DNA from: Streptomyces sp. NRRL F-5727
GTDB taxonomy: Bacteria; Actinomycetota; Actinomycetes; Streptomycetales; Streptomycetaceae
Assembly (NCBI RefSeq): GCF_000719555.1
Contig: NZ_JOGX01000118.1
Span: 1-19,512, forward strand
DNA length: 19,512 nucleotides
Direction of reading: 5' to 3'
The notes under the pieces are model-generated. The model saw nothing but the letters and a program-made list of their open reading frames with translations. It did not search any database and had not been told where the DNA came from. Position 1 is the first letter of the stretch; the number at the start of each line of letters is the position of its first letter. The position numbers and the translations under genes are program-made. Shown here one piece after another: positions 1 to 17,687 of this stretch.

Positions 1-2785
1 GCGAAGAGGCCGCAGAGGATCTCCTCGCGCGGGCTGCGCGGGGCACGGTGCGCGGTGCCGGCGGTGAAGTCGGGGGCGGGCAGGGCGCGGCGGTCCAGCT
101 TGCCGTTGGGGGTGAGGGGCAGGCCGGGCAGGGGGACGATCGCGGACGGCACCATGTGCGGGGGCAGGGTCCGGGCCAGGTGGTCGCGCAGGGCGGCCGG
201 GTCGGCGTCGCCGACGACGTACGCGACGAGGTGCCGGTCGCCGGGGCGGTCCTCCCGGACCACGACGGCCGCGTGGGTGACGCCGGGGTGGCGGCCGGCG
301 ACGGTCTCGATCTCGCCGGGTTCGATCCGGAAGCCGCGTACCTTGACCTGGCTGTCGGCCCGGCCGGCGATCTCCAGGGTGCCGTCGGCGCGCCAGCGGG
401 CGAGGTCGCCGGTGCGGTACACGCGGGCGCCGCGCGGTCCGTGGGGGTGGGCGACGAACCGTTCGGCGGTGAGGGCCGGGCGGTGGCGGTAGCCGTGGGC
501 GAGGCCGTCGCCGGAGACGTACAGCTCGCCGGTGACGCCCGGGGGGACGGGCTGGAGGCGGGCGTCGAGGACGTACACCTGGGTGTGGGCGAGGGGGTGG
601 CCGACGGGGACGGTGGCGCGTGCGGTGTCGTCGGCGGTGACCTGGTGGGCGTTGGTGAAGACCATCGACTCGACGGGGCCGTAGCCGTGGACGATCCGCA
701 GGTGTGGGAAGTCCCGGCGGACGCGCTGGAGATGGGCGAGGGAGGGTGCCTCGCCACCGGTCATGACCTGGCGCAGGGTGCGGAAGACCTCGGGGCGGGT
801 GTCGGCGATGACGGCGAAGAGGCCGGCGGAGAGCCAGACGGTGGTGACGGCGTGCGCGGCGACGAGGTCGGCGATCACGGCGGGGTCGGGGCTCTGGCCG
901 GGGGCGAGGACGCAGGTGCCGCCGTGCAGGAGGGCGGGCCAGAGCTCCAGGGTGAGGCCGTCCCAGGAGACGGGGGCGCACTGGAGCCACACCTCGTCCG
1001 GGCCGAAGGCCACGTACTCCTGGCCGAAGAAGGTGCGGACGGTGGCGCGGTGCGGGGAGGCGACGCCCTTGGGGCGGCCGGTGGAGCCGGAGGTGAAGAG
1101 GACGCAGGCGAGGTCGTCGGCGCGGACCCGCACGTCGGGGGCGGTGGCGGGGCGGGCGTCGATCAGGGCGCGGTCGGCCGGCGCGTCGGCGCGGACGAGG
1201 GTGAGGTCCGGCGGCAGCAGGGCGGCGAGCGCGCGGTGGGTGACGGCGGTGCGGACGCCGGCTTCCGCGACGATGGAGCGGAGCCGGTCCTCGGGGTGGT
1301 CGGGGTCCAGGGGGACGTAGGCGGCGCCGCACTTGAGGGCGGCGAGGATGCCGGTGACGAGGTCGGGGCCGCGGGTGACGAGGACGCCGACGACGTCGCC
1401 GTGGCCGACGCCGAGGCCGATGAGGTGGTGGGCGAGGCGGTTGGCGCGGGCGTCGAGTGCGGCGTAGCCGATCCGCTCGGTGCCGGAGATCAGGGCGGTG
1501 GCGTGGGGGGTGCGGGCGGCCTGGTCGGCGAAGAGTTCGTGCAGGGAGCGGTCGTGCGGGTAGGGGGCGGCGGTGTCGTTCCAGGTGGTGAGGGTGGTGT
1601 GGCGCTCCTCGGCGGAGAGGACGTCGAGGGTGCCGAGGGGGCGGTCGGGGTCGGCGACGGCGGCGTGCAGCAGGCGTTCGAGCCGGGTGAGGAGGGTGCG
1701 GGCGGTGGCGGGGTCGAAGAGGTCGGTGGCGAATTCGAGGCCGCCGTCGAGCCCGGCGGGGGCGCCGGCCCGGTCGTGGGTCTCGGCCAGGGCGAGGGAG
1801 AGGTCGAACTTGGCGGTGGTGTTGGTGACCGGCTCGGGGCGGGCGGTGGCGTCGCCGAGGCGTACGTCGGTCTCCTCGGTGTTCTGGAGGACGAGCATCA
1901 CCTGGAAGAGCGGGTGCCGGGCGAGCGAGCGGACCGGGTTCAGCTCCTCGACCAGCCGGTCGAAGGGCACGTCCTGGTGGGCGTAGGCGGCGAGGTCGGA
2001 CTCCCGGACCCGGGCGAAGAGGGTGGCGTGGGTCTCCCGGGCCAGGTCGCGCAGCCCCTGGTGGAGCCCGGGCCCGAACCGCACGGGCAGGACGGCGCCG
2101 TCGCCGCGGGTGTCGCCGGCGCGGGGCCGGTCGGTGGGCAGGGGCAGGGCGTCGGGCAGTCCGGCGAGGGCGTCGCGCCAGTGGTCGAGCTGCCGGGCGA
2201 GGAGGCTGTCGGGGTCGGTGTCGTCGCCGAGGAGGTCGCGCTGCCAGAGGGTGTAGTCGGCGTACTGGACGGGCAGCGGCGCCCATGAGGGTTCGTCCCC
2301 GGCGGCGCGGGCGGCGTAGGCCGTGGCCAGGTCGCGCAGGAGCGGGGTCATGGACCAGCCGTCGGCGGCGATGTGGTGCATCACCAGGAGCAGCACGTGG
2401 TCGCCCGTGTCGGCGGTGAGGAGGTGGGCCCGGAACGGGAGTTCGCCGGCGAGGTCGAAGCGGTGGGAGGCGGCGGCCCGGAGGGCGGCGGCCAGCTCGT
2501 CGGGGGTGTGCGGACGGTCGGTGACGGTCAGGTGGGGGCGGGCGTCCGCCGCCGGGACGACGGACTGGCGGGGCAGGCCGTCGACGGCCGGGAAGCGGGT
2601 GCGGAGGGGCTCGTGGCGGCCGGTGAGGTCGGTGAGCGCGGCCCGGAGGACGTCCGGGTCGACGGTGCCGCCGAGGCGGGCGGCGAAGGTCAGGTTGTAG
2701 GCGGTGCCGCCGGTGTCGCCCTGGGCGGTGTCGAGGAACCAGAGGCGCTGCTGGGCGTGGGAGAGCGGCAGTTCCACGGGGCGGG
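1..2785 (-). other. NRPS module 4: C4-A4-(T4 cut by window edge)
   Basis: C4 (about 2785-1605) has [11 protein letters not shown] and the catalytic HHIAADG at 2378-2358. At about 2016 an in-frame jump joins HATLF to [14 protein letters not shown], losing about 60 residues including the NTLVLR core, so C4 cannot be complete as written. A4 (about 1550-75) is intact: [11 protein letters not shown] loop, [54 protein letters not shown] and NGKLDRR. Its specificity residues read D-G-L-W-M-G-G-V-F-K, closest in pattern to Val-type codes, with low certainty. It differs from the other three A domains along its whole length. The first residues of a carrier domain ([11 protein letters not shown]) reach position 1, so the gene continues to the left. 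Confidence 0.87.
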
Positions 2786-5700
2786 CGGCGGGGCGCAGGG
2801 CCGGCCTGGCGGACGCGGCACCGTCGAGGCGGCGGGCGAGCGCGGCGACGGTGGGCGCCTGGAAGAGGTCGCGGACGCCGGCCTCGACGCCGAGGGCGGT
2901 GCGGATGCGGCCGGTGAGGCGGGCGGCGAGCAGGGAGTGGCCGCCGAGGTGGAAGAAGTCGTCGTCGACGCCGATGTCTTCGACGCCGAGGACCTGGGCG
3001 AAGAGGCCGCAGAGGACCTCCTCGCGCGGGGTGCGCGGGGCGCGGCCGCCGGCGGGCGCGCTGGTGTCGGGGGCGGGCAGGGCCTGGCGGTCGAGTTTGC
3101 CGTTCGGGGTGAGCGGGAGGGCGTCGAGGACGACGACGGCGGCGGGCACGAGGTGTTCGGGGAGCCGGGTCAGCGCGGCCTGGACCTCGCCGGGCTCGAC
3201 GCGGAACCCGCGGATCTTCACCTGCCCGTCGGCCCGGCCCAGGAACTCCAGGACGCCGTCGGCGCGTCGGCGGACCAGGTCGCCGGTGCGGTAGACCCGC
3301 TCCCCGGGGGAGCCGTACGGGTGGGCGACGAACCGCTCGGCGGTCAGGCCGCTTTGGCCCACGTACCCCCGGGCGAGGCCGACGCCGGCCATGTACAGCT
3401 CGCCGGCGACACCGACCGGGACCGGCCGCAGCCGCTCGTCCAGCACGTAGACGCGCTTGTCGGCGATCGGCCGGCCGACCGGGATCGACGGGGCGGTGGC
3501 GTCCCGGTCCTCGACCGTGTGGCAGCAGGTGAAGATCATCGACTCGACCGGCGAATAGCCGTTGACCAGCCGCAGCCCCGGATACTCCGCCCGCGCCTTC
3601 GCGATGTGCGCCACGGACAGCGGCTCGCCGCCCGTCATCAGCTGCCGCACACCCACTGCAGCCACACCTCGTGAACATCACGCAGGCCACGTCCTCCGGC
3701 CCCGCGATCCGTCCCAGGTCGGTGTCGTCCAGGCCGGCGATCGCGTCCGCCTCGGTGTCCAGGCGTACGAAGTCGGCGGCGGCGTCGCGCCAGCCGTCGG
3801 CGGGTTCGCCGGCGGTGACGATCAGCCGGGCCCCGGCGGTGTCGGCGACGGTGCGCAGCCGCTCGACGGGGAATCCGGCGTCGAGCAGGGTGTATCCGGC
3901 GCCCGCCTTGAGGACGGCGAGGACGGTGACGACGAGGTCGAGGTCCCGGTCGAGGAGGACGGCGACGGTGTCGCCGCGGCCCGTGCCCCGGGCCCGGAGG
4001 TGGCGGGCGAGCCGGTTCGCGGCGGCGTTGAGCTCCGCGTAGCCGATCGTGCGGTCCGGGAGGACCAGGGCGGTGGCGTCGGGGGTGCGGGCGGCCTGCC
4101 GCTCGAAGAGCTCGTGGACGCCCTCGGTCCGCGGGAGGGCGGTGGCGGTGGCGTTCCAGGTGTCGAGGAGCGTGGTGCGCTCGTCGGCGGCGAGGACGTC
4201 GAGGTCGCCGATCCGGCGGTCCGGCTCGGCCGCTGCCGCCGTGAGGAGGCGGACCAGGCGGTCGGCGAGCGCCTCGGCCGTCGTCCGGTCGAAGAGGTCG
4301 GTGGCGTACTCCAGGAAGCCGGTCAGGCCGGCGGGGGCGCCGTCCTCGGCGTGGTGCCGTTCGGCGACGAAGGTGAGGTCGAACTTGGCGCTGTGGCGCT
4401 CGGGGTGGGCGACCCGCACCTCGCAGCCCGGCAGGGCCGGGACCGGGGTGGCGTCCTGGAGGGCCAGCATCACCTGGAAGAGCGGGTGGCGGGCGAGCGA
4501 GCGGACCGGGTTCAGCTCCTCGACCAGCCGGTCGAAGGGCACGTCCTGGTGGGCGTAGGCGGCGAGGTCGGACTCCCGGACCCGGGCGCGCCCGCGCCGA
4601 GCCGGGTGAGCAGGGCGGCGAGGCCGGCCTGCACGACCATGAAGAGGGTGGAGTCGCTGCGGCGGGCGAGGTCGAGGAGCCGCCCGTGCAGCCCGGCGTC
4701 GAGGGCGAGGGGGACGCTGTCGCCGCGGTGGCTCGCGACGGGCGGCCGGGGCCGGTCGGTGGGGAGGGCCGTCGCGTCGGGGGCGCCGGCGAGGGCCTCG
4801 CGCCAGTGGTCGAGCTGGCGGCGGGCGAGGCTGTGCGGATCGGCCTCGTCGCCGAGGAGGGCGCGCTGCCAGAGGGTGTGGTCGGCGTACTGGACGGGCA
4901 GCGGCGCCCACTCCGGCGTACGGCCTTCGGCGCGGGCCGCGTAGGCGGTGGTGAGGTCCCGGGTCAGCGGGGTGAGGGACCAGCCGTCGGCGGCGATGTG
5001 GTGCGCCACCAGGAGCAGGACGTGGTCGTCGGCGGCGACGGTGAGCAGCGTGGCGCGCAGCGGCGGCTCGGCGGCGAGGTCGAAGCGGTGGGCGGAGGCG
5101 TCGCGGAGGGCCTGGGGCAGCTCCTGCTCGGCGCAGGCGGCCGTGTGCCAGACGGCGGCGGCGAGCGTGGGGGTGTCGGCGTCGAGGACGTGCTGCCAGG
5201 GCTCTCCGTCCGTCGTGGGGAAGACGGTCCGCAGGGCCTCGTGACGGGCCGTCACGTCGAGGACGGCCTGGCGCAGCGCGTCGGTGTCGAGGGGGCCGCG
5301 GACGCGGAGGGCGAGGGGCACGTTGTAGGAGGCGCTGGGTTCCTCGGCCTGGTCGAGGAACCAGAGGCGCTGCTGGGCGGAGGAGAGCGGGACGCGCTCG
5401 GGGCGCGGGGACGGCAGCAGGGGCGGGCGGGGGGCGGGACCGGCTCCGGTGCCGTCGTCGGTTCCGTCGGCGCCGGCGTCGGCGTCGAGGCGGGCGGCGA
5501 GTGCGGCGACGGTGGGGGCGTGGAAGAGTTCGCCGATGCCGACGTGGGCGTCGAGCGTGGTGCGGATGCGGCTGATCAGGCGGGCGGCGAGGAGCGAGTG
5601 ACCGCCCAGGTCGAAGAAGTTGTCGTGCGCGCCGACCCGTTCGACGCCGAGGACACCGGCGAAGAGCTCCGCCAGGGCGGCCTCGCGGGCCGTCCGCGGC

Positions 5701-8700
5701 TCCGCGCCGGCGTCGGCGGACGCGGTGGGCGCGGGGGCGGGCAGGGCCTGGCGGTCGAGCTTGCCGTTCGGGGTGAGCGGGAGGGCGTCCAGGACGGTGA
5801 AGCTGCCGGGCCTGAGGTGTTCGGGCAGGTGGGCGGTGGTGTGGGCGCGGGCGTCGGCCGGGTCGAGTACGGTGCCGGGCTCGGCGACGAGGTAGGCGGC
5901 GAGGCGCTTGTCGCCGGGCCGCTCCTCGCGGACCACCACGGCGGCCTGGCGGACCTGCGGGTGCCGCATGAGAACGGCCTGGATCTCGCCGGGCTCGACG
6001 CGGAAGCCGCGGATCTTCACCTGGCCGTCGGCCCGGCCGACGTACTCCAGGACGCCGTCGGCGCGCCGCCGGACCAGGTCGCCGGTGCGGTAGACCCGCT
6101 CGCCGGGGGCGCCGTGGGGGTGGGCGACGAACCGTTCCGCCGTCAGGCCGGGCTGGCCCAGGTAGCCGTGGGCCAGTCCCGCGCCGGTGAGGTAGAGGTC
6201 GCCGACGACGCCGGCCGGGACCGGGCGGAGCCGGTCGTCCAGGACGTACATCCGCTCGTGGGCGATCGGCCGGCCGATCGGGATGGCCGGGTGGCGGGTG
6301 TCCTCGGGGGTGATGGTGTGGGTCGACACGAAGATCATGGCCTCGACCGGTCCGTAGCCGTTGACCAGCCGCAGTCCCGGGTACTCCGCGAGCGCCTTCG
6401 CCGCGTGGGCGGGCGAGGCGGCCTCGCCGCCGCCGATGACCTGGCGCATCCCGGTGAAGCAGCCGGGGTACTCGTCGAGCAGGAAGTTCAGCAGGCTCGC
6501 CGACAGGTAGGCCGAGGTGACGCGGTGGCGGGCGATCAGCTCGGCGATCACGGCGGGCTCCGGCTTGCCGCCGGGCTGCAGGACGCAGGTGCCGCCGTGC
6601 AGCAGGGGGCCGAAGACCTCCAGGGCGAAGGCGTCCCAGGACATCGGCGCGGACTGCAGCCACACCTGGTCCGGGCCGAAGGCGACGAAGTCCTGGCCGG
6701 TGAGGGTGCCGGTGAGGGCCCGGTGGGGGGCCACCACGCCCTTGGGGACGCCCGTCGAGCCCGAGGTGAACATGACGCAGGCGGCGTCCTCGGGTCCGAC
6801 CGCGCGCCCGGGCGCGGAGGCGGCGCGGGCGGCGATGGCTGCCGCGTCGGGGTCGGCGTCGAGCCGGACCAGAGGGGTGTCGGGGCCGAGCACGTCACCG
6901 AGCTCTCCCGCCGTGACCACGCGCGCGAGTCCGGCGCGTCCGACGACGTCCCGCAGCCGCTCGCCGGGGAACCCGGGGTCGAGCAGGGTGTAGGCGGCGC
7001 CCGCCTTCAGCACGGCGAGCAGGGCCACGACGAGCCGCGGTTCGCGCTCCAGGAGGACGCCGACCGTGTCGCCGCGGCGCACTCCGAGCCCGACGAGGTG
7101 CCGGGCCAGCCGGTTCGCGGCGCGCTCCAGCTCGCCGTAGGTCATCCGCTCGTCGCCGGACACGAGGGCCGTCGCGCCGGCCGTCGCCCGGGCCTGCCGC
7201 TCGAACAGCTCGTGCACGGGCACCCCGTACGGCTCCGAGGGGGTGCTGCCCTCCCCGAGCAACTGCCGCCGCTCCCCCGCCGTGAGGACGTCCAGGTCGC
7301 CGACGGGTACGTCGGGCCGGGCGGCGGCCGCCTCCAGGAGGCGCACCAGGCGCGCCACCAGCGCCTCGGCGCTGTCCCGGTCGAACAGGTCCACGGCGTA
7401 CTGGGCGGTGCCGTGGATGCCGGTGGGGCGGCCGGCGACGTCGTAGCCCTCGGTGACGTCGAAGGTGAGGTCGAACTTGGCGACGTCGAGGGTGAGCACG
7501 CGCTGTTCGACGAGGTCCACGCCGGGCAGCCGCGGGGTGGCGACGGCGTTGTTCTGGAGGACGAGCATCACCTGGAAGAGCGGGTGGCGGGCGGGCGAGC
7601 GGACCGGGTTCAGCTCCTCGACCAGCCGGTCGAAGGGCACGTCCTGGTGGGCGTAGGCGGCGAGGTCGGACTCCCGGACCCGGGCGAGGAGTTCGCGGAA
7701 GGTCGGGTCGCCGGAGGTGTCCGTGCGCAGCACGAGGGTGTTGGCGAAGAAGCCGACCAGGTCGTCCAGGGCCTCGTCCGACCGTCCGGCGACCGGGGTG
7801 CCGAGGGGGATGTCGTCGCCCGCGCCGAGGCGGGTGAGCAGCGCGGCGAGGCCGGCCTGCACGACCATGAAGAGGGTGGAGTCGCTGCGGCGGGCGAGGT
7901 CGAGGAGCCGCCCGTGCAGCCCGGCGGGGAGGTCGACGGGGACGACTCCGCCGCGGTGCGAGGGGTGGAGCGGGCGGGGGCGGTCGGTGGGGAGGGTGGT
8001 CTCGTCGCCGAGTCCGGCCAGGGTCCGCCGCCAGTGCGCGAGCTGCCGGGCGAGGACGCTGTCCGGGTCGGCCGGGTCGCCGAGGAGGTCGCGCTGCCAG
8101 AGGGTGTAGTCGGCGTACTGGACGGGCAGCGGCGCCCACTCCGGCGTACGGCCCTCGACGCGGGCCGTGTAGGCCGTCGCCAGGTCGCCGACCAGCGGTG
8201 CCAGCGACCAGCCGTCGCAGGCGATGTGGTGCACGACGAGGAGCAGGACGTGCTCCCCCGGCCCGGCGTCGAAGAGGTGGGCCCGCAGCGGCGGCTCCGT
8301 GGCGAGGTCGAAGCCCCGGCGGGCGGCGGCGGTGAGGGCCTCGGGGAGTCCGTCCGGGCCGGGGGCGGTGTGGGTCCAGGGAACGCGGGCGTCCTCGGGG
8401 GCGGGCACCTCCTGGCGGGGCCGGCCGTCGGTCGCGGGGTGGCGGGTGCGCAGGGCCTCGTGGCGCTCCGCCAGGTCGGCGACGGCGCCGCGGAGGGCGT
8501 CGGCGTCGAGGGCGCCGCGCAGCCGGAGGGCGATCGGGACGTTGTACGTGGCTCCGCCGGCGGGTTCCTCACCGGTGTCGCGGCCCTCGGCCTGGTCGAG
8601 GAACCAGATGCGCTGCTGGGCGGCGGAGAGCGGGAGTTCGGCGGGGCGGGCGGCGGGGAGGAGGGCGGGCGGGGCTTCCGCTGCGCCGTCGAGGGCGCTG

Positions 8701-10214
8701 GCCAGGGCGGCGGGGGTGGGGGCCCGGAAGAGTTCGCGGATGCCGATCTCGACGCCGAAGGCGCGGCGGATGCGGCTGATCAGGCGGGCGGCGAGGAGGG
8801 AGTGGCCGCCGAGGAGCAGGAAGCTCTCGTCGGCGCCGACCTCGTCCACGCCGAGGACGTCGGCGAACAGTCCGCAGAGGGTGTGCTCGGCGGGTGTCTC
8901 CGGGGCGCGGCCGACCGGCGCGGTGCGGGCCTGCGGGGCGGGCAGGGCCTGGCGGTCGAGTTTGCCGTTCGGGGTGAGCGGGAGGGCGTCGAGGACGACG
9001 ACGGCGGCGGGCACGAGGTGTTCGGGGAGCCGGGACGGCGGCCTGGCGGACGTGCGGGTGCTTCATCAGCGCGGCCTGGACCTCGCCGGGTTCGATCCGG
9101 AAGCCGCGGATCTTCACCTGGCCGTCGGCGCGTCCGACGAACTCGACGACGCCGTCGGGCCGCATGCGGACCAGGTCGCCGGTGCGGTAGAGCCGTGCGC
9201 CGGGGGCGCCGTACGGGTGGGCGACGAAACGTTCCGCCGTCAGGCCCGGCCGGCCCGCGTACCCCCGGGCGAGGCCGACGCCGGCCATGTACAGCTCGCC
9301 CTCGGCGCCCGGCGGGAGGGGGCACAGGCGCTCGTCGAGGACGTGGATCTGCTTGTGGGTGAGGACGGAGCCGACGGGGATCGCGGTGTGCTCGGTGTCC
9401 CGCTCGCCGACGGTGTGGCAGCAGGTGAAGATCATGGACTCCACGGGCGAGTACCCGTTGACCAGCCGCAGCCCCGGGTACGCGGCGAGGGCCCGGGCCA
9501 CGTGCGGCACGGACAGCGGCTCGCCGCCCGTCATCAGCTGCCGCACGCCGTCGAAGCACCCCGGGTACTCGTCCAGGAGGAAGTCGAGGAGGCTCGCCGA
9601 GACGTGGACGGTGGTGACGCCGTGGGCGGCGATCAGTTGGGCGATGACGGCCGGCTCCGGGCGCGTCCCGGGCTGGAGGACGCAGGTGCCGCCGTGCAGC
9701 AGCGCCCCGAACAGCTCCAGCGCGAAGGCGTCCCACGACACCGGCGCGCACTGCAGCCACACCTCTTCCCGGCGTCCCGGGCGGCGACGGCGTCCGCCTC
9801 CGCGTCGACCGGGACGGGAAGCACCGGCGTACCGTCCCAGCGGCCGGCGAGCCGGGCCGTGGTGACGGCGTGGGCGGCGCCGGCCAGGGAGGCGATCTCG
9901 CGGACCCGTGCGGCGGGCAGGGCGGGGTCGAGGAGGGTGTATCCGGCGCCGGCCTTCAGGACGGCGAGGACGGCCACGACCAGCTCGGTGTCCCGCTCCA
10001 GGAGCACTCCGACGGTGTCGCCGCGCCGCACCCCGAGCGCGGTCAGGTGGCGGGCGAGGCGGTTGGCCCGGGCGTTCAGCTCGCCGTACGGGGTGCCCCG
10101 TCCCTCGAAGACCACGGCGGTGGCATCGGGGGTCCGGGCCGCCTGCTCCTCGAAGACCTCGTGGACGCAGTCCAAGGACACCTTCATCATCTCCATCGGT
10201 CGGGGCGTGGACAT
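1..10214 (-). CDS. Nonribosomal peptide synthetase, A-T-C-A-T-C-A-T-C-A-(T), 3' end outside window, frame broken as sequenced
   Basis: This is a multimodular NRPS assembling a peptide on phosphopantetheine carrier domains. It begins directly with an adenylation domain, so the first module is an initiation module. Three C-A-T modules follow, the last cut by the window edge just inside its carrier domain. The chosen start is the ATG at 10214 (MSTPRP...). ATGs a few codons later are also possible, and no good Shine-Dalgarno sequence precedes any of them. As sequenced the gene is not one open frame. Reading is continuous over 10214-9766, 9765-9035, 9034-4589, 4588-3671 and 3653-1, with frame changes at about 9765, 9034, 4588 and 3653-3670. 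Two further in-frame losses sit at about 3169 and 2016. Each break removes conserved core sequence. The gene is preceded by an MbtH gene and is the final visible gene of the cluster. NRPS identity is certain; whether the breaks are real is not. Confidence 0.9.
1925..2016. repeat. 92-nt intragenic repeat, copy in C4
   Basis: This tract encodes [20 protein letters not shown] and the following residues of the condensation domain. It is identical over 92 nt with the copies at 4497-4588 and 7595-7686. The in-frame loss in C4 begins exactly where identity with the other copies ends. Confidence 0.9.
3070..3169. repeat. 100-nt intragenic repeat, copy in A3
   Basis: This tract encodes the end of the adenylation domain ([31 protein letters not shown]). 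It is identical over 100 nt to 8935-9034 in A1. An in-frame loss of roughly 45 codons abuts its right-hand edge. Confidence 0.9.
4497..4588. repeat. 92-nt intragenic repeat, copy in C3
   Basis: Identical to 1925-2016 and 7595-7686. The frame-shifting break in C3 falls at the right-hand edge of this tract, at 4588/4589. Confidence 0.9.
5487..8645 (-). other. NRPS module 2: C2-A2-T2, intact
   Basis: This is the only module readable end to end, and it served as the internal reference for the damaged ones. C2 (about 8645-7290) has the [12 protein letters not shown] opening motif, the catalytic HHIACDG (HHxxxDG) motif, [12 protein letters not shown], and the full [32 protein letters not shown] stretch, quoted here only as its boundaries GDDIPLG to NTLVLR. 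A2 (about 7223-5733) has the intact phosphate loop [44 protein letters not shown] and the NGKLDR lysine. Its specificity residues read D-A-L-Y-I-G-G-I-F-K, related to Val-type DAxWxGGTFK codes; a medium aliphatic substrate is a weak guess. T2 (5681-5487) carries [10 protein letters not shown] with the modified serine at codon 5597-5595. No epimerase or methyltransferase insertion is present. Confidence 0.92.
7595..7686. repeat. 92-nt intragenic repeat, copy in C2
   Basis: Identical to 1925-2016 and 4497-4588. This copy continues into an uninterrupted C domain, so it shows what the flanking sequence of the other two copies should encode. Confidence 0.9.
8691..10214 (-). other. NRPS module 1: initiating A1-T1 (A1 damaged)
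   Basis: A1 starts at the protein N-terminus with no condensation domain before it. The N-terminal part ([39 protein letters not shown]) is normal. The sequence then jumps at about 9765 from the region before the TSGSTG phosphate-binding loop directly to [20 protein letters not shown], so the loop is absent. It continues through [16 protein letters not shown] and [12 protein letters not shown] second jump at about 9034 loses most of the C-terminal subdomain before [19 protein letters not shown] and the NGKLDR lysine motif. The readable specificity residues (GrsA numbering 235-331 plus K517) are D-A-L-H-M-G-G-I-F-K, with no confident substrate match; the GG-x-F-K ending recalls Val-type codes. 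T1 (8888-8691) is intact, with the LGGHS phosphopantetheine serine at codon 8801-8799. Confidence 0.85.
8935..9034. repeat. 100-nt intragenic repeat, copy in A1
   Basis: Identical to 3070-3169 in A3. A frame-shifting loss of about 40 codons of the A1 C-terminal subdomain abuts its right-hand edge at 9034/9035. Confidence 0.9.
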
Positions 10215-10276
10215 CGCGGGGTGGGGGAACGCGGGGCTGGAGCGCCGGGGTGGGAGGGCCGGGGCGGGCGGCCCGG

Positions 10277-10492: not shown

Positions 10493-10591
10493 CGGAATTC
10501 TCCTGTTCCTGAGTCGATTCCTCGGGGACATCGAAAAGCTAAGTCCGCCGCGCGTTCCCGAAAGGCAGCGAGCGGGGCAGCCGATCGGCAG
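10493..10591 (-). promoter_or_regulatory. Gap before MbtH/NRPS, possible internal promoter
   Basis: This 99-nt gap, the largest after the operon's packed upstream genes, is less GC-rich than the flanking genes. On the minus strand TAGCTT lies about 45 nt before the MbtH ATG and could be a -10 element, but no clear -35 accompanies it. A 10-bp palindrome GCCGATCGGC (10580-10589) follows the amidase stop without a U-tract. Confidence 0.25.
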
Positions 10592-12049
10592 TTACCGACG
10601 GATCCGGGGAGCCGGAACGCGAGGCGGAACTGCCGGTGTCCGGGGTCCGTCGCCGTGCCGCTCGGCCAGGAAAGCGGCGGGCAGCAGTCGCTCCAGCGCG
10701 GCCGGTCCGAACAGGGAGACGCCGACGGGCAGTTCGCCGGAGAATCCGGCGGGGACGGCGACGACGGGCCGGCCGGCCAGGGCCGGGAGGGTGGAGCTGG
10801 TCCGGGTGAACGGGTCGGGGCCGTCGTCGATGCGCCAGGCCGGGCCGCTGGTCGCGGCCATGAGGAGGTCCACGCCGTGTGCGGCCAGGGCCGTGTCGAT
10901 CAGGTCGCGGGCCCGTCGGCGGGTGCGCCGCCGGAGGGCCGCGGCGAGCGCCCGCTCCTCGTCCGTGAGTTCGGCGCACCGCTCCAGCAACTCCTGGCCG
11001 AAGAGGGCCAGTTCCACCGGGTCCCGGCGGTTCTCCGCGATGACCTCGTCCAGGGTGGCGGGCGCGCCGGGCCGGCCGCTCAGGTACCGCTCCAGTGAGG
11101 GCCGGAACTCGGCGCAGAGCGCGTCGAGTCCGTCGACGAGCATGTCCCGGGGCAGGGTGATCTCGACGGGGACGACGGTGGCGCCCGCGGCCCGGAGCCG
11201 TTCGGCGAGGCGTTCGGCGAGCTCCTGGGCGTCCGGGGCCATGCCCTTGACGTGCCACAGCCCCATCCGGACGGTCCCGGGCGGGGCCGGTGCGGCGGGG
11301 AGGGGGCGGCCGGTGAGGACGGCGAGGCAGAGCGCCGCGTCCGCCAGCCGGGGGGCCAGGGGTCCGAGGGTGTCCTGCACGGTGGAGATGGGCACGACAC
11401 CGGCCGTCGGCAGGGTGCCGGGCGCCGGTTTGATCGCGGCGACGCCGCAGACGCCCGCCGGGCAGACGAGCGAGCCGTCCGTCTCGGTGCCGAGGGCCAG
11501 CGGGGCCATTCCGGCCGCCACGGCGGCGGCCGAGCCGGCGGAGGAGCCCCAGGGGCTGTGCGCCGGGGCGTAGGGGTTGCGGGTCTGGCCGCCGACGGCG
11601 GACCAGCCCTCGATGCTGCGCGTGGAGCGGAAGTTGCCCCATTCGGTGAGGTTCGTCTTGCCGAGGACGACGGCCCCGGCCGCGCGCAGCCGGGTGACGA
11701 CCGCCGCGTCCCGTGCGGGAGGGGTGCCGGCGAGCAGCCGGGATCCGGCGGTGGAGGCGAGTCCCGCCGTGTCGATGTTGTCCTTGAGGAGGACCGGGAT
11801 GCCGTCGAGGGGGCCGAGGGGGGTGCCCCGGGCGTGGCGGAGGTCGGCGGCGCGGGCCTGTGCGGGGGCGGTGTCGTCGACCGCGAGGACGGCGCGGACC
11901 ACCGGGTCGGCGGTGGCGATCCGGTCCAGGCAGGCCGTGACCAGGTCCGTGCTGGTGAGGGCGGAGGAGCGCAGGCTCCGGGCCAGTTCGGCGACGGGCC
12001 GGTGCTGGAGGCCCGGCGGGTGGGGGGCCGGGGCGCCGGGGTCAGTCAA
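10592..12049 (-). CDS. Amidase-signature family amidohydrolase
   Basis: A 485-residue amidase-signature hydrolase, which cleaves C-N amide bonds using a Ser-cisSer-Lys triad. The triad can be placed at Lys89 (GIPVLLKDNID), Ser169 (PWGSSAGSAAAVAAG) and Ser193 (TETDGSLVCPAG). The 24-residue spacing between the two serines matches fatty acid amide hydrolase (217/241). The motif before the nucleophile reads T-D-G-S where the family usually has G-G-S. The start is a TTG at 12049 preceded by GGAGG (12060-12056) at 6 nt. It overlaps the MFS stop by 8 nt, so translation is probably coupled. No signal peptide is seen, so it acts in the cytoplasm. A GatA-type tRNA amidotransferase subunit is unlikely given the biosynthetic context and absent GatB/C. 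Likely roles are deprotection or maturation of the peptide, or hydrolysis of an amide intermediate; the substrate is unknown. Confidence 0.9.
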   Translation of the reverse strand: MTDPGAPAPHPPGLQHRPVAELARSLRSSALTSTDLVTACLDRIATADPVVRAVLAVDDTAPAQARAADLRHARGTPLGPLDGIPVLLKDNIDTAGLASTAGSRLLAGTPPARDAAVVTRLRAAGAVVLGKTNLTEWGNFRSTRSIEGWSAVGGQTRNPYAPAHSPWGSSAGSAAAVAAGMAPLALGTETDGSLVCPAGVCGVAAIKPAPGTLPTAGVVPISTVQDTLGPLAPRLADAALCLAVLTGRPLPAAPAPPGTVRMGLWHVKGMAPDAQELAERLAERLRAAGATVVPVEITLPRDMLVDGLDALCAEFRPSLERYLSGRPGAPATLDEVIAENRRDPVELALFGQELLERCAELTDEERALAAALRRRTRRRARDLIDTALAAHGVDLLMAATSGPAWRIDDGPDPFTRTSSTLPALAGRPVVAVPAGFSGELPVGVSLFGPAALERLLPAAFLAERHGDGPRTPAVPPRVPAPRIRR

Positions 12050-13331
12050 GGCGGGCCTCCCTGAGGAGGGGGACGAGGAGCACCGTGCCGAGGGCGGTCA
12101 GGGCGACCAGCGCGTGCAGCAGCAGCGCCCAGGTCATGCCGGCCCATTCGACGAGCGCCCCGATGACGAGGTTGCCGAGGGGCGCGGCGCCGAAGATGAG
12201 GAGGGCCTGGATGGACACGATCCGGCCGCGGACGGCCTCGGGCGCCCAGCGCTGGACGCAGGAGACCAGGACGGTGCCGACGAGCGCCGAGACGAGGCCC
12301 AGACCGGCGTACGGGGCGAGGGCGGCGGCCGTCGACGGGCTCCAGGCGAGGGCCGCCAGGCAGGCGGTCTGTCCGGCGGTGCCGACGGCGAGGACGAGCC
12401 CCGCGCGGCGGCGGGCGGGCCACACCAGCGTCAGCAGGAATCCGGCGGCGGCGCCGATGGTGAAGGCGGTCAGCAGCAGGCCGGCGCCGGCGGCGGCCGA
12501 ACCGTTCCGGTTCGCCATCAGGGCCACGCCGATGTTGATGGGTCCCGCTCCGGCGAACTCGGTGAGTCCGATCACGGTGATCACGGCCCTGAGCCGTGGC
12601 GCGGCGGCCACGGCCCGCAGCCCTTCGCCGATGCGGGCGGCCAGGGAGGGCTGCGGGGCGGCGGTGCCCGCGTCCTTCTCGGGTACGGGCTCCGCCTGTG
12701 CGGCGGCCCGCTCCCGCCGGGTCCGGACGCGGAGGACGGCGAGGGCCGACACCGCGTAGGTCACCGCGTTGACGGCGGCGACGAGCGGGATGCCGCCGAG
12801 GGCCATCAGGACGCCGCCGAGGGGTCCGCCGGCGGCCTGGCCGCCGCGCAGGGCGCCCAGGTAGAGGGCGTTGCCGCGGACGAGGTGGCGCTCGGGCAGC
12901 AGTCCGGCGCGCAGCGCGCCGGAGGCCGGGATGAAGAACGCGCCGAACAGCGCGAGGCCGGCCGCCGCCGCCACGAGCAGCGGCACGCCGGGGCCGAGGG
13001 CGAGCGCTCCGGCGGCGGCGAGCGCCATGACCGCGCAGCGGGCGAGGTCGGCGCCGACCATGACCCGGCGGGGGCCGGCGCTGTCGACGAGGGCGCCCGC
13101 GCCGAGCAGGGTCACCAGGCGGGGCAGGGAGGCGAGCGCGAGGACCGCGCCCGCCCGTGCGGGGCCGGTGTCGGCGGTGACCGTCCAGGCGAGCGTCACG
13201 TACCAGGCGGCGTCGCCGAGCGCGGACAGGCCCATGGCGAGGACGAAGCCCAGGTAGCCGCCGTCGGTGAGGCGGGCGTCCGCCGGGCGGACGGCGGCGG
13301 GCGCGGGGCCGGTGGCCATGCTTCCGCTCAC
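12042..13331 (-). CDS. MFS transporter, probable product exporter
   Basis: A 429-residue integral membrane protein of the major facilitator superfamily, of the type of drug or siderophore exporters such as EntS. Multiple hydrophobic helices are evident from GYLGFVLAMGLSALGDAAWY at the N-terminus to LLLHALVALTALGTVLLVPL at the C-terminus. A hydrophilic central loop (RVRTRRERAAAQAEPVPEKD) divides the two halves. Short basic loops such as DSAGPRRVMVGADLAR follow helix 2, as in MFS proteins. I chose the GTG at 13331, which overlaps the TGA of the upstream FMN gene as GTGA. An ATG 12 nt further in is an alternative. The likely job is export of, and self-protection from, the peptide; direction and substrate are inferred from context only. 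Confidence 0.88.
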   Translation of the reverse strand: MSGSMATGPAPAAVRPADARLTDGGYLGFVLAMGLSALGDAAWYVTLAWTVTADTGPARAGAVLALASLPRLVTLLGAGALVDSAGPRRVMVGADLARCAVMALAAAGALALGPGVPLLVAAAAGLALFGAFFIPASGALRAGLLPERHLVRGNALYLGALRGGQAAGGPLGGVLMALGGIPLVAAVNAVTYAVSALAVLRVRTRRERAAAQAEPVPEKDAGTAAPQPSLAARIGEGLRAVAAAPRLRAVITVIGLTEFAGAGPINIGVALMANRNGSAAAGAGLLLTAFTIGAAAGFLLTLVWPARRRAGLVLAVGTAGQTACLAALAWSPSTAAALAPYAGLGLVSALVGTVLVSCVQRWAPEAVRGRIVSIQALLIFGAAPLGNLVIGALVEWAGMTWALLLHALVALTALGTVLLVPLLREARLD

Positions 13332-14677
13332 GGCCGGTCGCCCAGGGGTCCGGTGGACGCGGCGGCCGGGGACGGCAGTCCGGCCCCGGGCGCCCACACG
13401 TCCTCGTGGGCGAGCGCGTCGGCCCGGTACTTGCCCATCGCGCTGACGAGCAGGCGCAGTTCGAGGGCGAGGGCCTCGACGAGGCGGACGAGTCCCCGCT
13501 CGGGGTCCTCCTCGACGGCGAGGAGCGCGGCCCGGCCGAGTCCGACGGCGGTGGCGCCGAGCGCGAGCGCCTTGGCCGCGCGGGTGCCCTCCCACATGCG
13601 GCCGGAGGCGAGGAGCGCGCCGGCGGGCGGGCCGACGCGGCGCAGGCACTCGCCGAGCGGCAGGCCGACTCCGTCGAGGAAGCCGAGCGGGGCCCATCCG
13701 GTGCCGCCCTCGGCGCCGTCGACGGTGACGGCGTCGGCGCCGGCCGCCCAGGCGACGGCGGCGGCCTCCCCGACGTCGCGTCCGGGGTGGAGCTTCACCC
13801 ACACCCGGGCGCGGGGGAAGTTGTTGCGCATCAGGCGGATCTGCTGGCGCAGGATCTCCTCGGTGAAGGTGCCGGGGCTGCTGCACCGCAGGACCCGCCC
13901 GTCGCCGCCGAGGGCGTCGTCGACGGCGTACTGCTCGGCGACGCGGGCGGCGGCGGCGCGGTCCAGGACGGTCATGCCGCCGAGTCCCGGCTTGGCGCCC
14001 TGGCCCACCTTCAGCTCGAAGGCGAGCCGGCCCGTGTCGAGCAGGGGCCGGGCGGAGGGGTCGCTGTAGACGAGGTTCCACACCTCGGCGTCGGCGTCCT
14101 CGGTGCTCTGCTGGACGGCGATGCCTCCGGTGCCGTCGGGCAGTTCGTCGAGGTAGGCGCGGATGCGGCCGAGCAGGGACCGTCCGGGGTCGCCGGACGG
14201 CGGGGTGCCGAGCCGGCCGTAGCCGTTGACGGGGATGACGTTCTCGCCGATCACCATGGGCAGGCCGAGCCGGCCGGCCTGCCGGCTGGCGGCGGTGCCG
14301 AGGTCGGCACTGGCCACCTGGGTGGAGCCGAAGGCCGAGAGGTAGGCCGGCAGCGGGGAGCGGAGGGCGCCCACGGCGGTGGCGAGGTCCACGTCGTGGT
14401 GGAGCGGCTCGCGGGCGAGGTCGATCAGCTTCTCCAGGCGGCGCGGCATGAAGACGGGCGGCACCAGGCGGAGTTCGTCCAGGAGGTCGGTCCCCGGTGC
14501 GGCGGTCCGCGGCCGGGCGGCGCCGAACAGGGTCCGTCCGTACGTCTCCCCCGGCGGGAAGAGGGCGGCGGTGCCGCGGCGGGCCCGGTCGCGTACGGCG
14601 TCGGCGGGGAAGCCGTCGGCCCTGAGGCCGGAGCCGTCCGGGTCCCGCGTCGTCTCGGTGGCGGGTCGGGGGCTCAC
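13328..14677 (-). CDS. Stand-alone FMN-binding glutamate synthase-like protein
   Basis: A 449-residue protein matching the FMN (synthase) domain of glutamate synthase large subunit, where 2-oxoglutarate and ammonia are reductively joined. Signature segments are ELKVGQGAKPGLGG (residues 221-234), WVKLHPGRDVGEAAAVAWAA (293-312), DGAEGGTGWAPL (320-331) and SGRMWEGTRAAKALALGATA (358-377), which build the FMN TIM barrel. The N-terminal glutaminase domain is absent. The only cysteines are C265 and C344, so the C-x5-C-x4-C 3Fe-4S ligands of GltB are missing. It therefore resembles the short, glutaminase-free FMN family. The start GTG at 14677 overlaps the stop of the upstream synthetase gene as GTGA. 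It could supply glutamate to the neighbouring mutase or catalyse another FMN-dependent amination or oxidation; the actual reaction is unknown. Confidence 0.87.
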   Translation of the reverse strand: MSPRPATETTRDPDGSGLRADGFPADAVRDRARRGTAALFPPGETYGRTLFGAARPRTAAPGTDLLDELRLVPPVFMPRRLEKLIDLAREPLHHDVDLATAVGALRSPLPAYLSAFGSTQVASADLGTAASRQAGRLGLPMVIGENVIPVNGYGRLGTPPSGDPGRSLLGRIRAYLDELPDGTGGIAVQQSTEDADAEVWNLVYSDPSARPLLDTGRLAFELKVGQGAKPGLGGMTVLDRAAAARVAEQYAVDDALGGDGRVLRCSSPGTFTEEILRQQIRLMRNNFPRARVWVKLHPGRDVGEAAAVAWAAGADAVTVDGAEGGTGWAPLGFLDGVGLPLGECLRRVGPPAGALLASGRMWEGTRAAKALALGATAVGLGRAALLAVEEDPERGLVRLVEALALELRLLVSAMGKYRADALAHEDVWAPGAGLPSPAAASTGPLGDRP

Positions 14678-15693
14678 GGGGCGACCACTCCCGGGACCTT
14701 CGGGTAGGCGCTGGCCTGCCAGACGGCGTCGAGGCCCGCGAGGTAGCGGGTGAAGCGCTCCAGGCCGATGCCGAATCCGGCGCTGTCCGGGATGCCGTCG
14801 CGGACCATCTGCAGGTACCAGCCGTACTTGGCGGGGTTCTCGCCGGTCTCCCGCATGCGGGCGACGATCCGGGCGTACTCGAACTCCCGCTCGCTGCCGC
14901 TGCACAGTTCGCCGTACCCCTCGGGGGCGAGGATGTCGAAGTTGCGGAGGGTGCCGGGCTCGTCCCGGCTCTCGCGGTCGTAGAAGCCGCGGGAGCCCTT
15001 GGGGTAGTCGGTGACGAAGAAGGGGCGCCCGGACTTGGCGGAGAGCAGCGCCTCGCCGTGCCAGTCGATCTCGGCGTCGGCGCTCTGCTCGTGGCCCAGG
15101 GCGCGCAGTTCGGCGACGGCCTCGGCGTGGGTGCGGTGCCCGAAGGGCTCGCCGAGGAGTTCGGTGAAGGCGCCGGTGTCGCGGCCGAGGGCCTCGAACT
15201 CCTCGGCGTGGTGGGCGACGGTCTCGCGCACGATGTGCCGGACGAGGTCCTCGCCGAGCCGGGTGATGTCCTCGCGGGAGGCGCCGGCGACCTCGACGTC
15301 GATCTGGTGGAACTCGGCCAGGTGGCGGCTGGTGTTCGCGGTCTCCAGGGGCTCCAGCCGGACGCAGGGCGCGATGCAGAAGATCTTGTCGAAGGCGAGC
15401 AGGGACGCCTGCTTGTAGAGGATGGCGCTGGTCATGAGCTTGTAGCGGTGGCCGTAGTAGTCGACGTCGACCTGCTTGGAGCCGCGCACGCCCGGGTCGG
15501 TGACCGGCCCGATCATCGGCGGCAGCATCTCGGTGAAGCCGTGCGCGCGCAGGAAGCCGCGGGCGGCGGTGAGCATGCCGTTCTGGAGCCGGATGACCGC
15601 GCGGGTCGTCGGGTCGGTCAGGTGGTCCGCGGGGGTGCCGGGCAGCCGGTCCGTGGTCGCGGGGGCTGCCGCCGGGTCGGTGAGGGGGAGCAT
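14674..15693 (-). CDS. AsnRS/AsnA-like class II synthetase lacking anticodon-binding domain
   Basis: A 339-residue class II aminoacyl-tRNA-synthetase core closest to asparaginyl-tRNA synthetase paralogues (archaeal-type asparagine synthetase). Those paralogues adenylate aspartate's side-chain carboxylate and let ammonia attack. Motif 2 is CVRLEPLETANTSRHLAEF (residues 110-128), with the ATP-contacting Arg in VRLEP and the RHLAEFHQIDVE stretch of Asp/Asn enzymes. Motif 3 is GFGIGLERFTRYL (306-318), with the invariant class II Arg313. The protein starts near motif 1 (about residues 31-65) and has no OB-fold anticodon domain, so a role in tRNA charging is unlikely. The ATG at 15693 lies 6 nt after the mutase stop, with AAGGA about 12 nt upstream. 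Context suggests amidation or amide ligation of 3-methylaspartate; ammonia versus another amine as acceptor cannot be told from sequence. Confidence 0.88.
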   Translation of the reverse strand: MLPLTDPAAAPATTDRLPGTPADHLTDPTTRAVIRLQNGMLTAARGFLRAHGFTEMLPPMIGPVTDPGVRGSKQVDVDYYGHRYKLMTSAILYKQASLLAFDKIFCIAPCVRLEPLETANTSRHLAEFHQIDVEVAGASREDITRLGEDLVRHIVRETVAHHAEEFEALGRDTGAFTELLGEPFGHRTHAEAVAELRALGHEQSADAEIDWHGEALLSAKSGRPFFVTDYPKGSRGFYDRESRDEPGTLRNFDILAPEGYGELCSGSEREFEYARIVARMRETGENPAKYGWYLQMVRDGIPDSAGFGIGLERFTRYLAGLDAVWQASAYPKVPGVVAP

Positions 15694-15699
15694 GGGCGT

Positions 15700-17121
15700 C
15701 TACCGTCCTTCTTCGGGGTGGGCCGCGCGGGCCGGCGGGCGGTGCCCGTCGTCGAGGGGCCGGTGGGCGGGCGAGGGGTCGAGGGCGGCGGCGTCGGAGC
15801 GCCGCTCCACGTGGCGGAGGGCGGTGAGCAGCCCTCCGGAGGTCAGGCGCGGCGCCCGGGCGGGCGCCACGATGCCGCCGAGCGGCATGCGGCCGACGGC
15901 GGACCAGCGCAGCCGTCCGTCGGTGTCGAGGTAGCTCCGGCTCCGCTGGGCGTTGTCGGGGTGGAGGCAGTAGGGGACGTCGAGGTAGCCGCGCGCGAAC
16001 GCCTGCGGCAGGGCGCGGCCGAGATCCGGGGAGAGTTCCAGGACGGCCTGGACGAGGGCGGACGCCTCGGCGTGGATTCCGGTGTCGGCGACCGGCGTCG
16101 GTGCCGGTCCCGTGGCGGCCGGGCCCGCCGTCGGTCCCTTCGCGGGCGGGAGGGTGCGGTCGCGCTCCGCCTCGGCGGCGCGGGCCGCCGCCTCCAGGGC
16201 GGCCACGTTCTCCGCCACGGTCGGGATGCGGTGGGCCTCCGCGGCGGTCTTCACGATGAGCCGGGCGGCACCGGTGCGGACCGCGAGCCGGGCCGAGTCC
16301 TCCAGGAGGAGCCGGGCGCCGCCGGGGGTGCGCGGGTACACGCCCATGTACGTGTAGACGACGATGTGCCAGTCGAGGCCGGGCAGCAGCTCCTCCGCCA
16401 GCCGCCGCAGGGCGTGCAGCGCCTCCTCGTCCTGCCCGGGGTCGGTCTGCTGGGCGTAGCTGAGGGAGACGCTGCGCAGACCGTGCTGGGCGAAGAACAG
16501 GGCCTCCAGGACGCTGAGCGCCACGAGCAGGCCCGGCGGGCACAGCTGGCCCATCATGCAGCCGCCGAAGGTCTCCATGTGGGGTTCGGCGCCGTGGTCG
16601 CGGGCCCGGGCGAGCAGTGCGCAGCTGCGGGCCCAGTTCTCGACGGACTCGGTCAGCGGGGTACGTCCGTAGGGCAGGCAGTACGAGACGGGGCCGCCCT
16701 CGGTGGCGTCGAGTCCGGCGCGGAGGAGCGCCGCGACGATGGACTGGGGGGCGGCGGAGCCGTGCCGGACCTGCACGGGGAAGTCGTGGTCCTGGATGCC
16801 GTGGAGGACGGACCGGGTGACGGCGGTGTCGTAGGTGACGAGGGGATAGCCGTTGAGCGGGACGCCGTCGGCGAGCGCGCGGCGGGCGGCGGTCTGGTCG
16901 CCGACGCGGGTGTAGCTGTCGAGGGTGACGGTGCCGACGGTGGTGGCGTCGGCGGCCCGGGTGGCGGCGAGGCCGGCCCGCATGGCGCGCGGGTCGCTCA
17001 TGCCCATGCGGGGCTGGACGACGAGCCGGCCGGCGTGCCGGGCGGCGGCGACGAAGGCGCCGAAGGAGCCGGGGGGCGACGCCGGCGGGACCGCCGGGGC
17101 GGGGTGGACGGGTGCGGTCAT
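15700..17121 (-). CDS. glmE: Glutamate mutase (methylaspartate mutase) large subunit
   Basis: A 473-residue catalytic E subunit of adenosylcobalamin-dependent glutamate mutase, which rearranges L-glutamate to (2S,3S)-3-methylaspartate. Family blocks are strongly kept: VQVRHGSAAP (residues 116-125, substrate-binding Arg), EGGPVSYCLPYGRTPLTESV (141-160), METFGGCMMGQLCPP (182-196), SVSLSYAQQTD (217-227), WHIVVYTYMGVYP (251-263) and ARLIVKTAAEAHRIPT (286-301). The length is close to the usual 480. A Pro/Ala-rich insert (about 325-344) and a low-complexity tail (440-473) are extra. The ATG at 17121 overlaps the small-subunit stop as ATGA, coupling the two subunits. In secondary metabolism such mutases feed 3-methylaspartate into nikkomycin, vicenistatin and friulimicin-type pathways. 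Confidence 0.95.
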   Translation of the reverse strand: MTAPVHPAPAVPPASPPGSFGAFVAAARHAGRLVVQPRMGMSDPRAMRAGLAATRAADATTVGTVTLDSYTRVGDQTAARRALADGVPLNGYPLVTYDTAVTRSVLHGIQDHDFPVQVRHGSAAPQSIVAALLRAGLDATEGGPVSYCLPYGRTPLTESVENWARSCALLARARDHGAEPHMETFGGCMMGQLCPPGLLVALSVLEALFFAQHGLRSVSLSYAQQTDPGQDEEALHALRRLAEELLPGLDWHIVVYTYMGVYPRTPGGARLLLEDSARLAVRTGAARLIVKTAAEAHRIPTVAENVAALEAAARAAEAERDRTLPPAKGPTAGPAATGPAPTPVADTGIHAEASALVQAVLELSPDLGRALPQAFARGYLDVPYCLHPDNAQRSRSYLDTDGRLRWSAVGRMPLGGIVAPARAPRLTSGGLLTALRHVERRSDAAALDPSPAHRPLDDGHRPPARAAHPEEGR

Positions 17122-17687
17122 GCGGTCACGCCCGCGGGGAGGCTTCTCAGGAAGGACCCGAAGGACGCCAGGCCCGCGCCGTCCTCGAAGACGGCGTCGA
17201 AACCGGCTTCGAGCAGGCTCGCGTGCTCGGTGCTCCCGGCGCCGCCGATGCCGAGCTTCCCGCCGATCACGACCGGGATGGCGGCGGTCTCGGGGTGGCC
17301 GCGCAGCTCCCTGACGACCCGTCGTCCGTCGTTGGCCCCGTGTCCGTTGACGCTGCTGATCACGACCAGGTCGGGGCGCTGCCGCCGGCACTCGCGGACC
17401 AGCAGCTCGTCGGGCACGCACGCCCCGAGGTTCGCGACCCGGTGGCCCAGCTCCTCCAGCAGCAGCTGCAGGAAGACGAGGTTCCAGGTGTGCGCGTCCG
17501 ACGCGACGCTGGAGACGATCACGTGGAGGCCGGAGTCCGGTGGCGCCGGCGCGACCGGGGCCGGTGCCGGCGCGACCGGGTTCGGTGCCGGGGTGACCGG
17601 GTTCGGTGCCGGGGTGACCGGGTTCGGTGCCGAGGTGATCGGGGTCGGTATCGGGGTGACCGGGGATACCGGGGTGCCCACTTCCAT
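17118..17687 (-). CDS. glmS: Glutamate mutase small subunit (cobalamin-binding)
   Basis: A 189-residue protein whose residues about 52-180 form a B12-binding Rossmann domain of the methylaspartate mutase S subunit. It would carry adenosylcobalamin to the E subunit encoded immediately downstream. Asp64 and His66 (SDAHTWN) form the DxH signature whose His ligates cobalt. ISSVNGHG (110-117) and GGKLGIGG (142-149) are the further cofactor-binding loops. The usual glycine of DxHxxG is Asn69 here. Residues 1-50 are a Pro/Ala/Thr/Val-rich tail of seven-residue repeats not found in the roughly 137-residue clostridial subunit. The ATG at 17687 keeps the tail in frame but has only a weak ribosome-binding site, so a later start cannot be excluded. 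This is the first gene of the tightly packed operon. Confidence 0.92.
   Translation of the reverse strand: MEVGTPVSPVTPIPTPITSAPNPVTPAPNPVTPAPNPVAPAPAPVAPAPPDSGLHVIVSSVASDAHTWNLVFLQLLLEELGHRVANLGACVPDELLVRECRRQRPDLVVISSVNGHGANDGRRVVRELRGHPETAAIPVVIGGKLGIGGAGSTEHASLLEAGFDAVFEDGAGLASFGSFLRSLPAGVTA
17551..17676. repeat. 21-bp tandem repeats coding a Pro-rich tail
   Basis: About six imperfect 21-bp units with consensus gtgaccgggttcggtgccgg plus one base start at 17551, 17572, 17593, 17614, 17635 and 17656. Units at 17572, 17593 and 17614 differ by only one or two bases. On the coding (minus) strand each unit gives the heptad PAPNPVT or a variant at the N-terminus of the glutamate mutase small subunit. 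Multiples of three keep the frame, so copy number can vary without disrupting the gene. Confidence 0.93.

Follow-up and report, generated by a model that had tools for sequence, protein, structure and literature searches.

Four consecutive genes in a 19,512-base stretch of DNA from Streptomyces sp. NRRL F-5727 (contig NZ_JOGX01000118.1) very likely form a supply cassette for 3-methylasparagine that is orthologous to slgE1-slgE2-slgZ-slgE3 of streptolydigin biosynthesis, with a flavin mononucleotide (FMN) protein that is accessory to the amidation half of the pathway. We put the probability of this reading at roughly 0.85. The stretch, hereafter the window, is an entire contig, and the cluster may therefore continue on other contigs. 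The cassette is real and well conserved. Its genes, coding for GlmS, GlmE, an AsnA-like protein and the FMN protein, all lie on the minus strand in this order:

17118..17687, minus strand: GlmS-like B12-binding small subunit of glutamate (methylaspartate) mutase (PF02310, E 1.3e-14; PDB 1cb7_A, E 1.7e-5)
15700..17121, minus strand: GlmE-like large subunit of glutamate mutase (Met_asp_mut_E PF06368, E 6e-81)
14674..15693, minus strand: AsnA-like class II synthetase, ortholog of SlgZ (PF00152; NF005052)
13328..14677, minus strand: FMN-barrel protein of the GltB domain-2 type, ortholog of SlgE3 (PF01645; PF01070)

The junction of the GlmS and GlmE genes reads ATGA, a gap of 6 nt separates the GlmE and AsnA-like genes, and GTGA marks both the AsnA-like/FMN junction and that of the FMN gene with the gene of a major facilitator superfamily (MFS) transporter. 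Pfam and NCBIfam agree on the family-level naming of all four genes. A preliminary description of this DNA had spoken of four consecutive genes that overlap or nearly touch, which is borne out by the coordinates, the junctions and the Pfam and NCBIfam matches. A set of the streptolydigin type for the supply of 3-methyl-Asx is already known; what is new is the argument that its flavin enzyme has been given the wrong function.

Streptolydigin orthologs and the proposed pathway

The four proteins of the window are orthologs of those encoded by streptolydigin slgE1/slgE2/slgZ/slgE3, with identities of 62-69% (GlmS, 69% over residues 56-170, and GlmE, 62%, to the S. lydicus copies; the AsnA-like protein, 67% to S. 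lydicus SlgZ; the FMN protein, 69% to SlgE3 over 432 residues). In the S. lydicus locus (L083), an SlgN1-like protein is encoded directly after the AsnA-like and FMN genes and matches SlgN1 of PDB 4gr5 over 567 aligned residues, with only the start residue different. L083 thus encodes SlgN1 and is the streptolydigin cluster. The statement in the preliminary description that no known pathway pairs these genes was therefore wrong, since all four have orthologs at this locus. Within the accessible portions of the open-licence literature, the four-gene combination was found for streptolydigin only. There, glutamate mutase is reported to supply 3-methylaspartate, and the roles of SlgE1-E3 and SlgZ are summarized in the same report (PMC5357945). 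Like the window, the streptolydigin cluster has all four genes, its AsnA-like, FMN and SlgN1 genes are contiguous, and both the supply of 3-methylaspartate and work on it are reported. Its mutase genes, however, are encoded on the opposite strand, ~2 kb past slgN1, and its SlgN1 is a fusion of MbtH and A domain, whereas the window has a multi-module nonribosomal peptide synthetase (NRPS), an amidase gene and an MFS gene in one run. SlgZ is reported to make the amide, in keeping with its family.

Neither GlmS nor GlmE reaches the equivalog cut-off of NCBIfam for a methylaspartate mutase. The cobalt-ligand motif D-x-H is present in GlmS (SDAHTWN), with N in place of the glycine of DxHxxG. In the GlmS alignment of the cassettes, 70 of the 77 rows have letters at the motif and all 70 read DxHxWN. 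The change from G to N was considered as a cassette-specific feature and rejected, because five mutases of genomes that lack the AsnA-like gene share it; in a sixth, weakly related mutase (G058) the motif reads DAHAVAN. GlmE, aligned to 1cb7_B, conserves R66, R100, R149, E171, Y177 and Y181, which we take to be the catalytic residues. The N-terminus of GlmS (17560-17687, minus strand) is proline-rich with NPVTPAP repeats, and the S. narbonensis copy differs there.

The AsnA-like protein matches tRNA-synt_2 (PF00152, E 5.1e-55) and scores 462 bits against the NCBIfam model of asparagine synthetase A (NF005052, cut-off 368). Its alignment to asparaginyl-tRNA synthetase (AsnRS; PDB 1x54) is confined to residues 125-432 of the latter, and therefore the N-terminal anticodon-binding domain is missing; the core also matches archaeal asparagine synthetase A (3p8t). 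Like the archaeal-type asparagine synthetase A, which is an AsnRS paralog, the protein has the catalytic core without the anticodon domain and keeps the class II motifs. It is 45 residues longer than the 294-residue 3p8t, and its predicted substrate, unlike that of the archaeal-type enzyme, is 3-methylaspartate.

In the proposed pathway, GlmS and GlmE with B12 would rearrange L-glutamate to (2S,3S)-3-methylaspartate, as expected from the chemistry of the family and the conserved active site. The AsnA-like enzyme, judging from its family and from SlgZ, would adenylate the side-chain carboxyl and amidate it with ammonia to give 3-methylasparagine, acting either on the free amino acid or after loading, and the neighboring NRPS would take 3-methylasparagine, most likely as a unit of a peptide antibiotic; streptolydigin is an antibiotic too. 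The FMN protein would be an accessory of amidation and not a glutamate synthase; it would most likely use flavin oxidation or imine chemistry, with glutamate or the amidated amino acid as its substrate, and it may possibly hand ammonia to the synthetase. The route from glutamate through 3-methylaspartate to an amide as building block had been suggested in the preliminary description and is supported by the streptolydigin orthology and by omnipeptin, an NRPS depsipeptide from a soil metagenome with beta-methyl-asparagine, which was called the first in a bacterial NRPS product in 2019 (PMC6710260). The comparison of omnipeptin with the window, for which the same unit is predicted, covers the product.

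Co-occurrence of the four genes

A search of a species genome collection with the AsnA-like protein gave 201 stretches with some relative, and the locus counts given here cover the best 80 of these 201. The preliminary description had proposed to look for co-occurrence within 10 kb in actinomycete genomes; all four genes are indeed found within this distance in 77/80 loci, and within 5.5 kb in 70 of these 77, and the grouping is therefore not due to chance. Two of the three loci without the full set are on contigs of ~4 kb, and the third is L076 from Streptomyces sp. SM11. The arrangement seen in the window, in both gene order and strand, recurs in 71/80 loci, the AsnA-like/FMN pair precedes the mutase in five, and GlmS is inverted in one. 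In 70 of 79 loci (starts chosen by script), the FMN gene begins within the AsnA-like gene or directly at its end. The top loci for the AsnA-like protein are from S. narbonensis (91%) and S. gardneri (90%), the best protein match of the FMN protein is from S. roseofulvus (96%), and the cassette is also present on two linear Streptomyces plasmids. An adenylation core motif occurs within the DNA examined in 63/80 loci. Because the whole set in the 77 loci stands beside differing NRPS and non-NRPS genes, many uncharacterized clusters gain a predicted building block, for which the cassette serves as a sequence marker (3-methylasparagine-type units).

We also examined the distribution of the genes in two genome samples (E-value limits per search: AsnA-like protein, 1e-30 and 1e-80; FMN protein, 1e-30 and 1e-40; GlmE, 1e-20 and 1e-80). 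Among 199 genomes, including that of the window, the AsnA-like protein is present at >=60% identity in 19 and the FMN protein in the same 19. A strong mutase is present in 53 genomes of this sample, and 35 of these lack both the AsnA-like and the FMN protein. Among 394 genomes in the second sample, the AsnA-like protein is present in 6 and the FMN protein in the same 6, and 10 of the 16 genomes with a mutase have neither. After removal of shared genomes, the AsnA-like and FMN proteins occur together in 23 genomes, i.e., the FMN protein accompanies the AsnA-like protein in 23/23, and no genome of the two samples has the FMN protein without the AsnA-like protein. The mutase is also present in 22 of the 23; in the exception (G113), the contig ends beside the pair. 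It lies ~6 kb away on the other strand in G003 and G030 and on another contig in G046. Left out of these counts were AsnA-like matches at 32-33% (G043 and G110), which are distant paralogs (G043 has a mutase and was counted as mutase-only), and five weak or fragmentary GlmE matches (G006, G055, G058, G060 and G080), so that 53 of 58 were kept.

The mutase without the other two genes is seen in 43 genomes; the preliminary description would have held its conservation across related clusters against its scheme, but the clusters of these 43 genomes need not be related ones. The FMN protein is thus present with the AsnA-like gene and not with the mutase alone, and it therefore follows amidation and not the mutase or glutamate supply. 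Pairwise identities across 76 loci (four of the 80 left out) are most strongly correlated for the AsnA-like and FMN proteins (r 0.91), although the difference from the other pairs (0.84-0.88) is small. The co-occurrence makes the published assignment of SlgE3 directly testable.

Role of the FMN protein

The FMN protein has 449 residues, and the only domains matched are Glu_synthase (PF01645, 71.6 bits, cut-off 20.4) and FMN_dh (PF01070, 37.8 bits). A class II glutaminase domain was not found in it or among the seven window proteins scanned, and the C-x5-C-x4-C loop that binds the [3Fe-4S] cluster is absent from it and from nine other cassette members aligned. The loop is kept in other PF01645 proteins of the same genome: L102, which is a long GltB, and L103, which is an FMN glutamate synthase. 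In a 98-row alignment of cassette FMN proteins, in which some loci were entered twice via two collections, Cys is near-invariant at window position 344 (95/98), with further Cys columns at 354 (76), 402 (51), 265 (28) and 370 (26). The spacing of these columns differs from that of the cluster loop, and of these cysteines the window protein has only those at 265 and 344.

Among three glutamate-synthase types compared, the FMN protein is nearest to GlxD (profile comparison: GlxD, E 1.6e-18; L103, 4e-14; L102 GltB, 9.1e-12), a ranking that is indicative only, because the profiles, built from two sequences or one, are very small. GlxD is likewise a protein of ~440 residues with the glutamate-synthase FMN domain, and the two GlxD examined are without the [3Fe-4S] cysteines. 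Its gene, however, adjoins those for a class II amidotransferase and a GXGXG subunit as well as glnT, whereas the FMN gene of the window has no such partners beside it; its neighbors are the mutase, AsnA-like, MFS and amidase genes. The predicted fold of the FMN protein ties with several FMN barrels and gives no firm placing. The subunit MgsC of N-methylglutamate synthase, known here by its published description alone, is also a protein of this FMN domain (PMC6237917).

The published reading of SlgE3, by which the FMN protein would be a true ferredoxin-dependent glutamate synthase and the source of glutamate for the mutase, appears to us quite improbable. It draws on the reported role of SlgE3 and on slgE3 expression, which is reported to increase as much as 9-fold when streptolydigin synthesis begins (PMC5357945). 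The FMN protein conserves QGAKPGxGG, a motif of the FMN domain in glutamate synthase. But ferredoxin-dependent glutamate synthase contains FMN and one [3Fe-4S] cluster and hydrolyzes glutamine (PMC8097209), unlike the FMN protein with neither a glutaminase domain nor the cluster loop; the genome has its other PF01645 proteins, and the FMN protein is found in 0/43 genomes that have the mutase and lack the AsnA-like gene. The label "ferredoxin-dependent glutamate synthase" fits SlgE3 badly because the glutaminase domain and the [3Fe-4S] cysteines are missing. For the same reasons, together with an occurrence that tracks the AsnA-like protein and not the mutase, the upstream role in glutamate or 2-oxoglutarate handling given to the FMN protein in the preliminary description is not supported. 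The job of the SlgE3-type flavin enzyme is probably mislabelled; amidation or the amidated product, rather than glutamate supply, is probably what the FMN protein serves.

How it would do so can be pictured in several ways. It might free ammonia from glutamate, as an oxidase or by imine hydrolysis, and feed it to the AsnA-like enzyme, which would make the pair a glutamate-fed amide synthetase. The co-occurrence in all 23 genomes, the adjoining gene ends in 70/79 loci and the GlxD-like sequence point this way, but archaeal-type AsnA uses free ammonia, the predicted fold does not decide, and the AsnA-like and FMN genes are on different contigs in SM11; we regard it as somewhat unlikely. Less likely still is that the FMN protein modifies 3-methylasparagine through imine formation and re-reduction, epimerization or amine exchange, in which case the true building block would be a variant. 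Streptolydigin biosynthesis has the gene, yet the 3-methylaspartate unit of streptolydigin is not known to be epimerized or oxidized. On the other side, transfer of an N-methyl amine group has been proposed for N-methylglutamate synthase, a related enzyme (PMC6237917), and the FMN protein occurs only alongside the AsnA-like gene. It is very improbable that the AsnA-like enzyme instead uses some amine in place of ammonia and so converts 3-methylaspartate to an N-substituted amide. Streptolydigin does carry an N-methylamide. But NCBIfam places the AsnA-like protein in asparagine synthetase A above the cut-off, and a separate methyltransferase, SlgM, is reported beside SlgZ (PMC5357945). Tentatively, and short of calling it probable, we suggest that the FMN protein, SlgE3 included, is a misassigned flavoenzyme, free of Fe-S and glutaminase and an obligate functional partner of the AsnA-like protein, delivering glutamate-derived ammonia or remodelling the amidated amino acid. 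If true, the FMN/AsnA-like pair would be an undescribed flavin-assisted amidation module across many actinomycete natural product clusters.

Several observations weigh against a 3-methylasparagine cassette with an accessory FMN protein. Among solved structures, the best sequence match of the FMN protein is type 2 isopentenyl diphosphate isomerase (1p0k, 38 bits, vs 29 bits for glutamate synthase), and its placing in the glutamate synthase group is therefore loose. In SM11 (L076 and L116), the GlmS, GlmE and FMN genes are adjacent on one contig and the AsnA-like gene is on another, and thus the AsnA-like and FMN genes need not be adjacent. No adenylation core motif is present in the examined DNA of 17/80 loci. 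The four adenylation (A) domains of the window, one of them partial, are 59-64% identical to SlgN1; among 104 A domains compared to the SlgN1 domain of L083 (itself included), 30 others have 58-67% identity and 73 have <=47%. The module-2 domain, the sole one tested alone, scores 572 bits against LgrA (linear gramicidin synthetase) vs 550 against SlgN1. Because of this slightly higher score, the window A domains do not show 3-methylasparagine loading, and the identity split was dropped as proof of it. Furthermore, SlgN1 is listed as activating (2S,3S)-beta-methyl-L-Asp (PMC11253843; PMC11355689), and the amide could thus arise after loading.

Neighboring genes of the window and of related loci

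The cassette is part of a six-gene run on the minus strand, GlmS, GlmE, AsnA-like, FMN protein, MFS transporter and amidase, which the NRPS adjoins. The other features of the window are:

12042..13331, minus strand: MFS exporter-like protein (PF07690, E 4.8e-24; GTGA overlap with the FMN gene)
10592..12049, minus strand: amidase-signature hydrolase (PF01425, E 3e-81)
3..9762, minus strand: NRPS region with at least four A domains (motif scan, frames, A-domain comparison and PDB matches; cut by the contig end)
17970..19298, minus strand: XRE/HTH (helix-turn-helix) regulator upstream of the cassette (HTH_31, E 9.5e-12; weak NTPase match, AAA_16, below cut-off)

A motif scan of the NRPS region placed A8 motifs near 9132, 6035, 3236 and 362. 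The reading frames jump in this region (1-10500, minus strand), with the A8 motif at 9132 in one frame, those at 6035, 3236 and 362 in another and ~4512-3665 in a third, which looks like assembly error in repeated modules. Substrate codes of the A domains, taken by regular expression and visual inspection, are unreliable at position 278.

Close copies of the neighboring proteins are limited to a subset of the fetched loci: the MFS protein in L022, L023, L032, L033, L039 and L046 (49-78%), and the amidase in six loci only, L022, L023, L032, L033, L046 and L091 (57-83%). The amidase, which adjoins the transporter, could have a role on the amide product or in self-protection. Open reading frames (ORFs) homologous to the XRE/HTH regulator are found in 43/80 fetched loci.

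Among the loci without an adenylation motif, L024 (Kribbella) encodes an ATP-grasp ligase, an ornithine/lysine N-monooxygenase and an amino acid permease by Pfam, and ORFs related to these neighbors occur in several others. The cassettes of L024-L026, L030 and L055 lie beside such ligase, N-monooxygenase and permease genes and have no NRPS adenylation motif; in these loci, a nearby protein has a sub-threshold match to DDAH, and the AsnA-like and FMN genes are 1.4-2.5 kb apart.

An ORF resembling ornithine/aspartate carbamoyltransferase (by Pfam on the L064 copy) lies near the cassette in 16/80 loci, namely L064, L068, L070, L072, L075, L079, L080, L082, L085, L086, L090, L093, L095, L097, L099 and L100. 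A cluster of the carbamoyltransferase type is also present on a linear plasmid (L106:15286-16209). On a plasmid of Streptomyces sp. NBC_00829 (L107:6142-7200), a second protein related to amino acid-tRNA ligases is annotated in the cluster of the cassette, together with separate A- and C-domain proteins, a methyltransferase and a P450.

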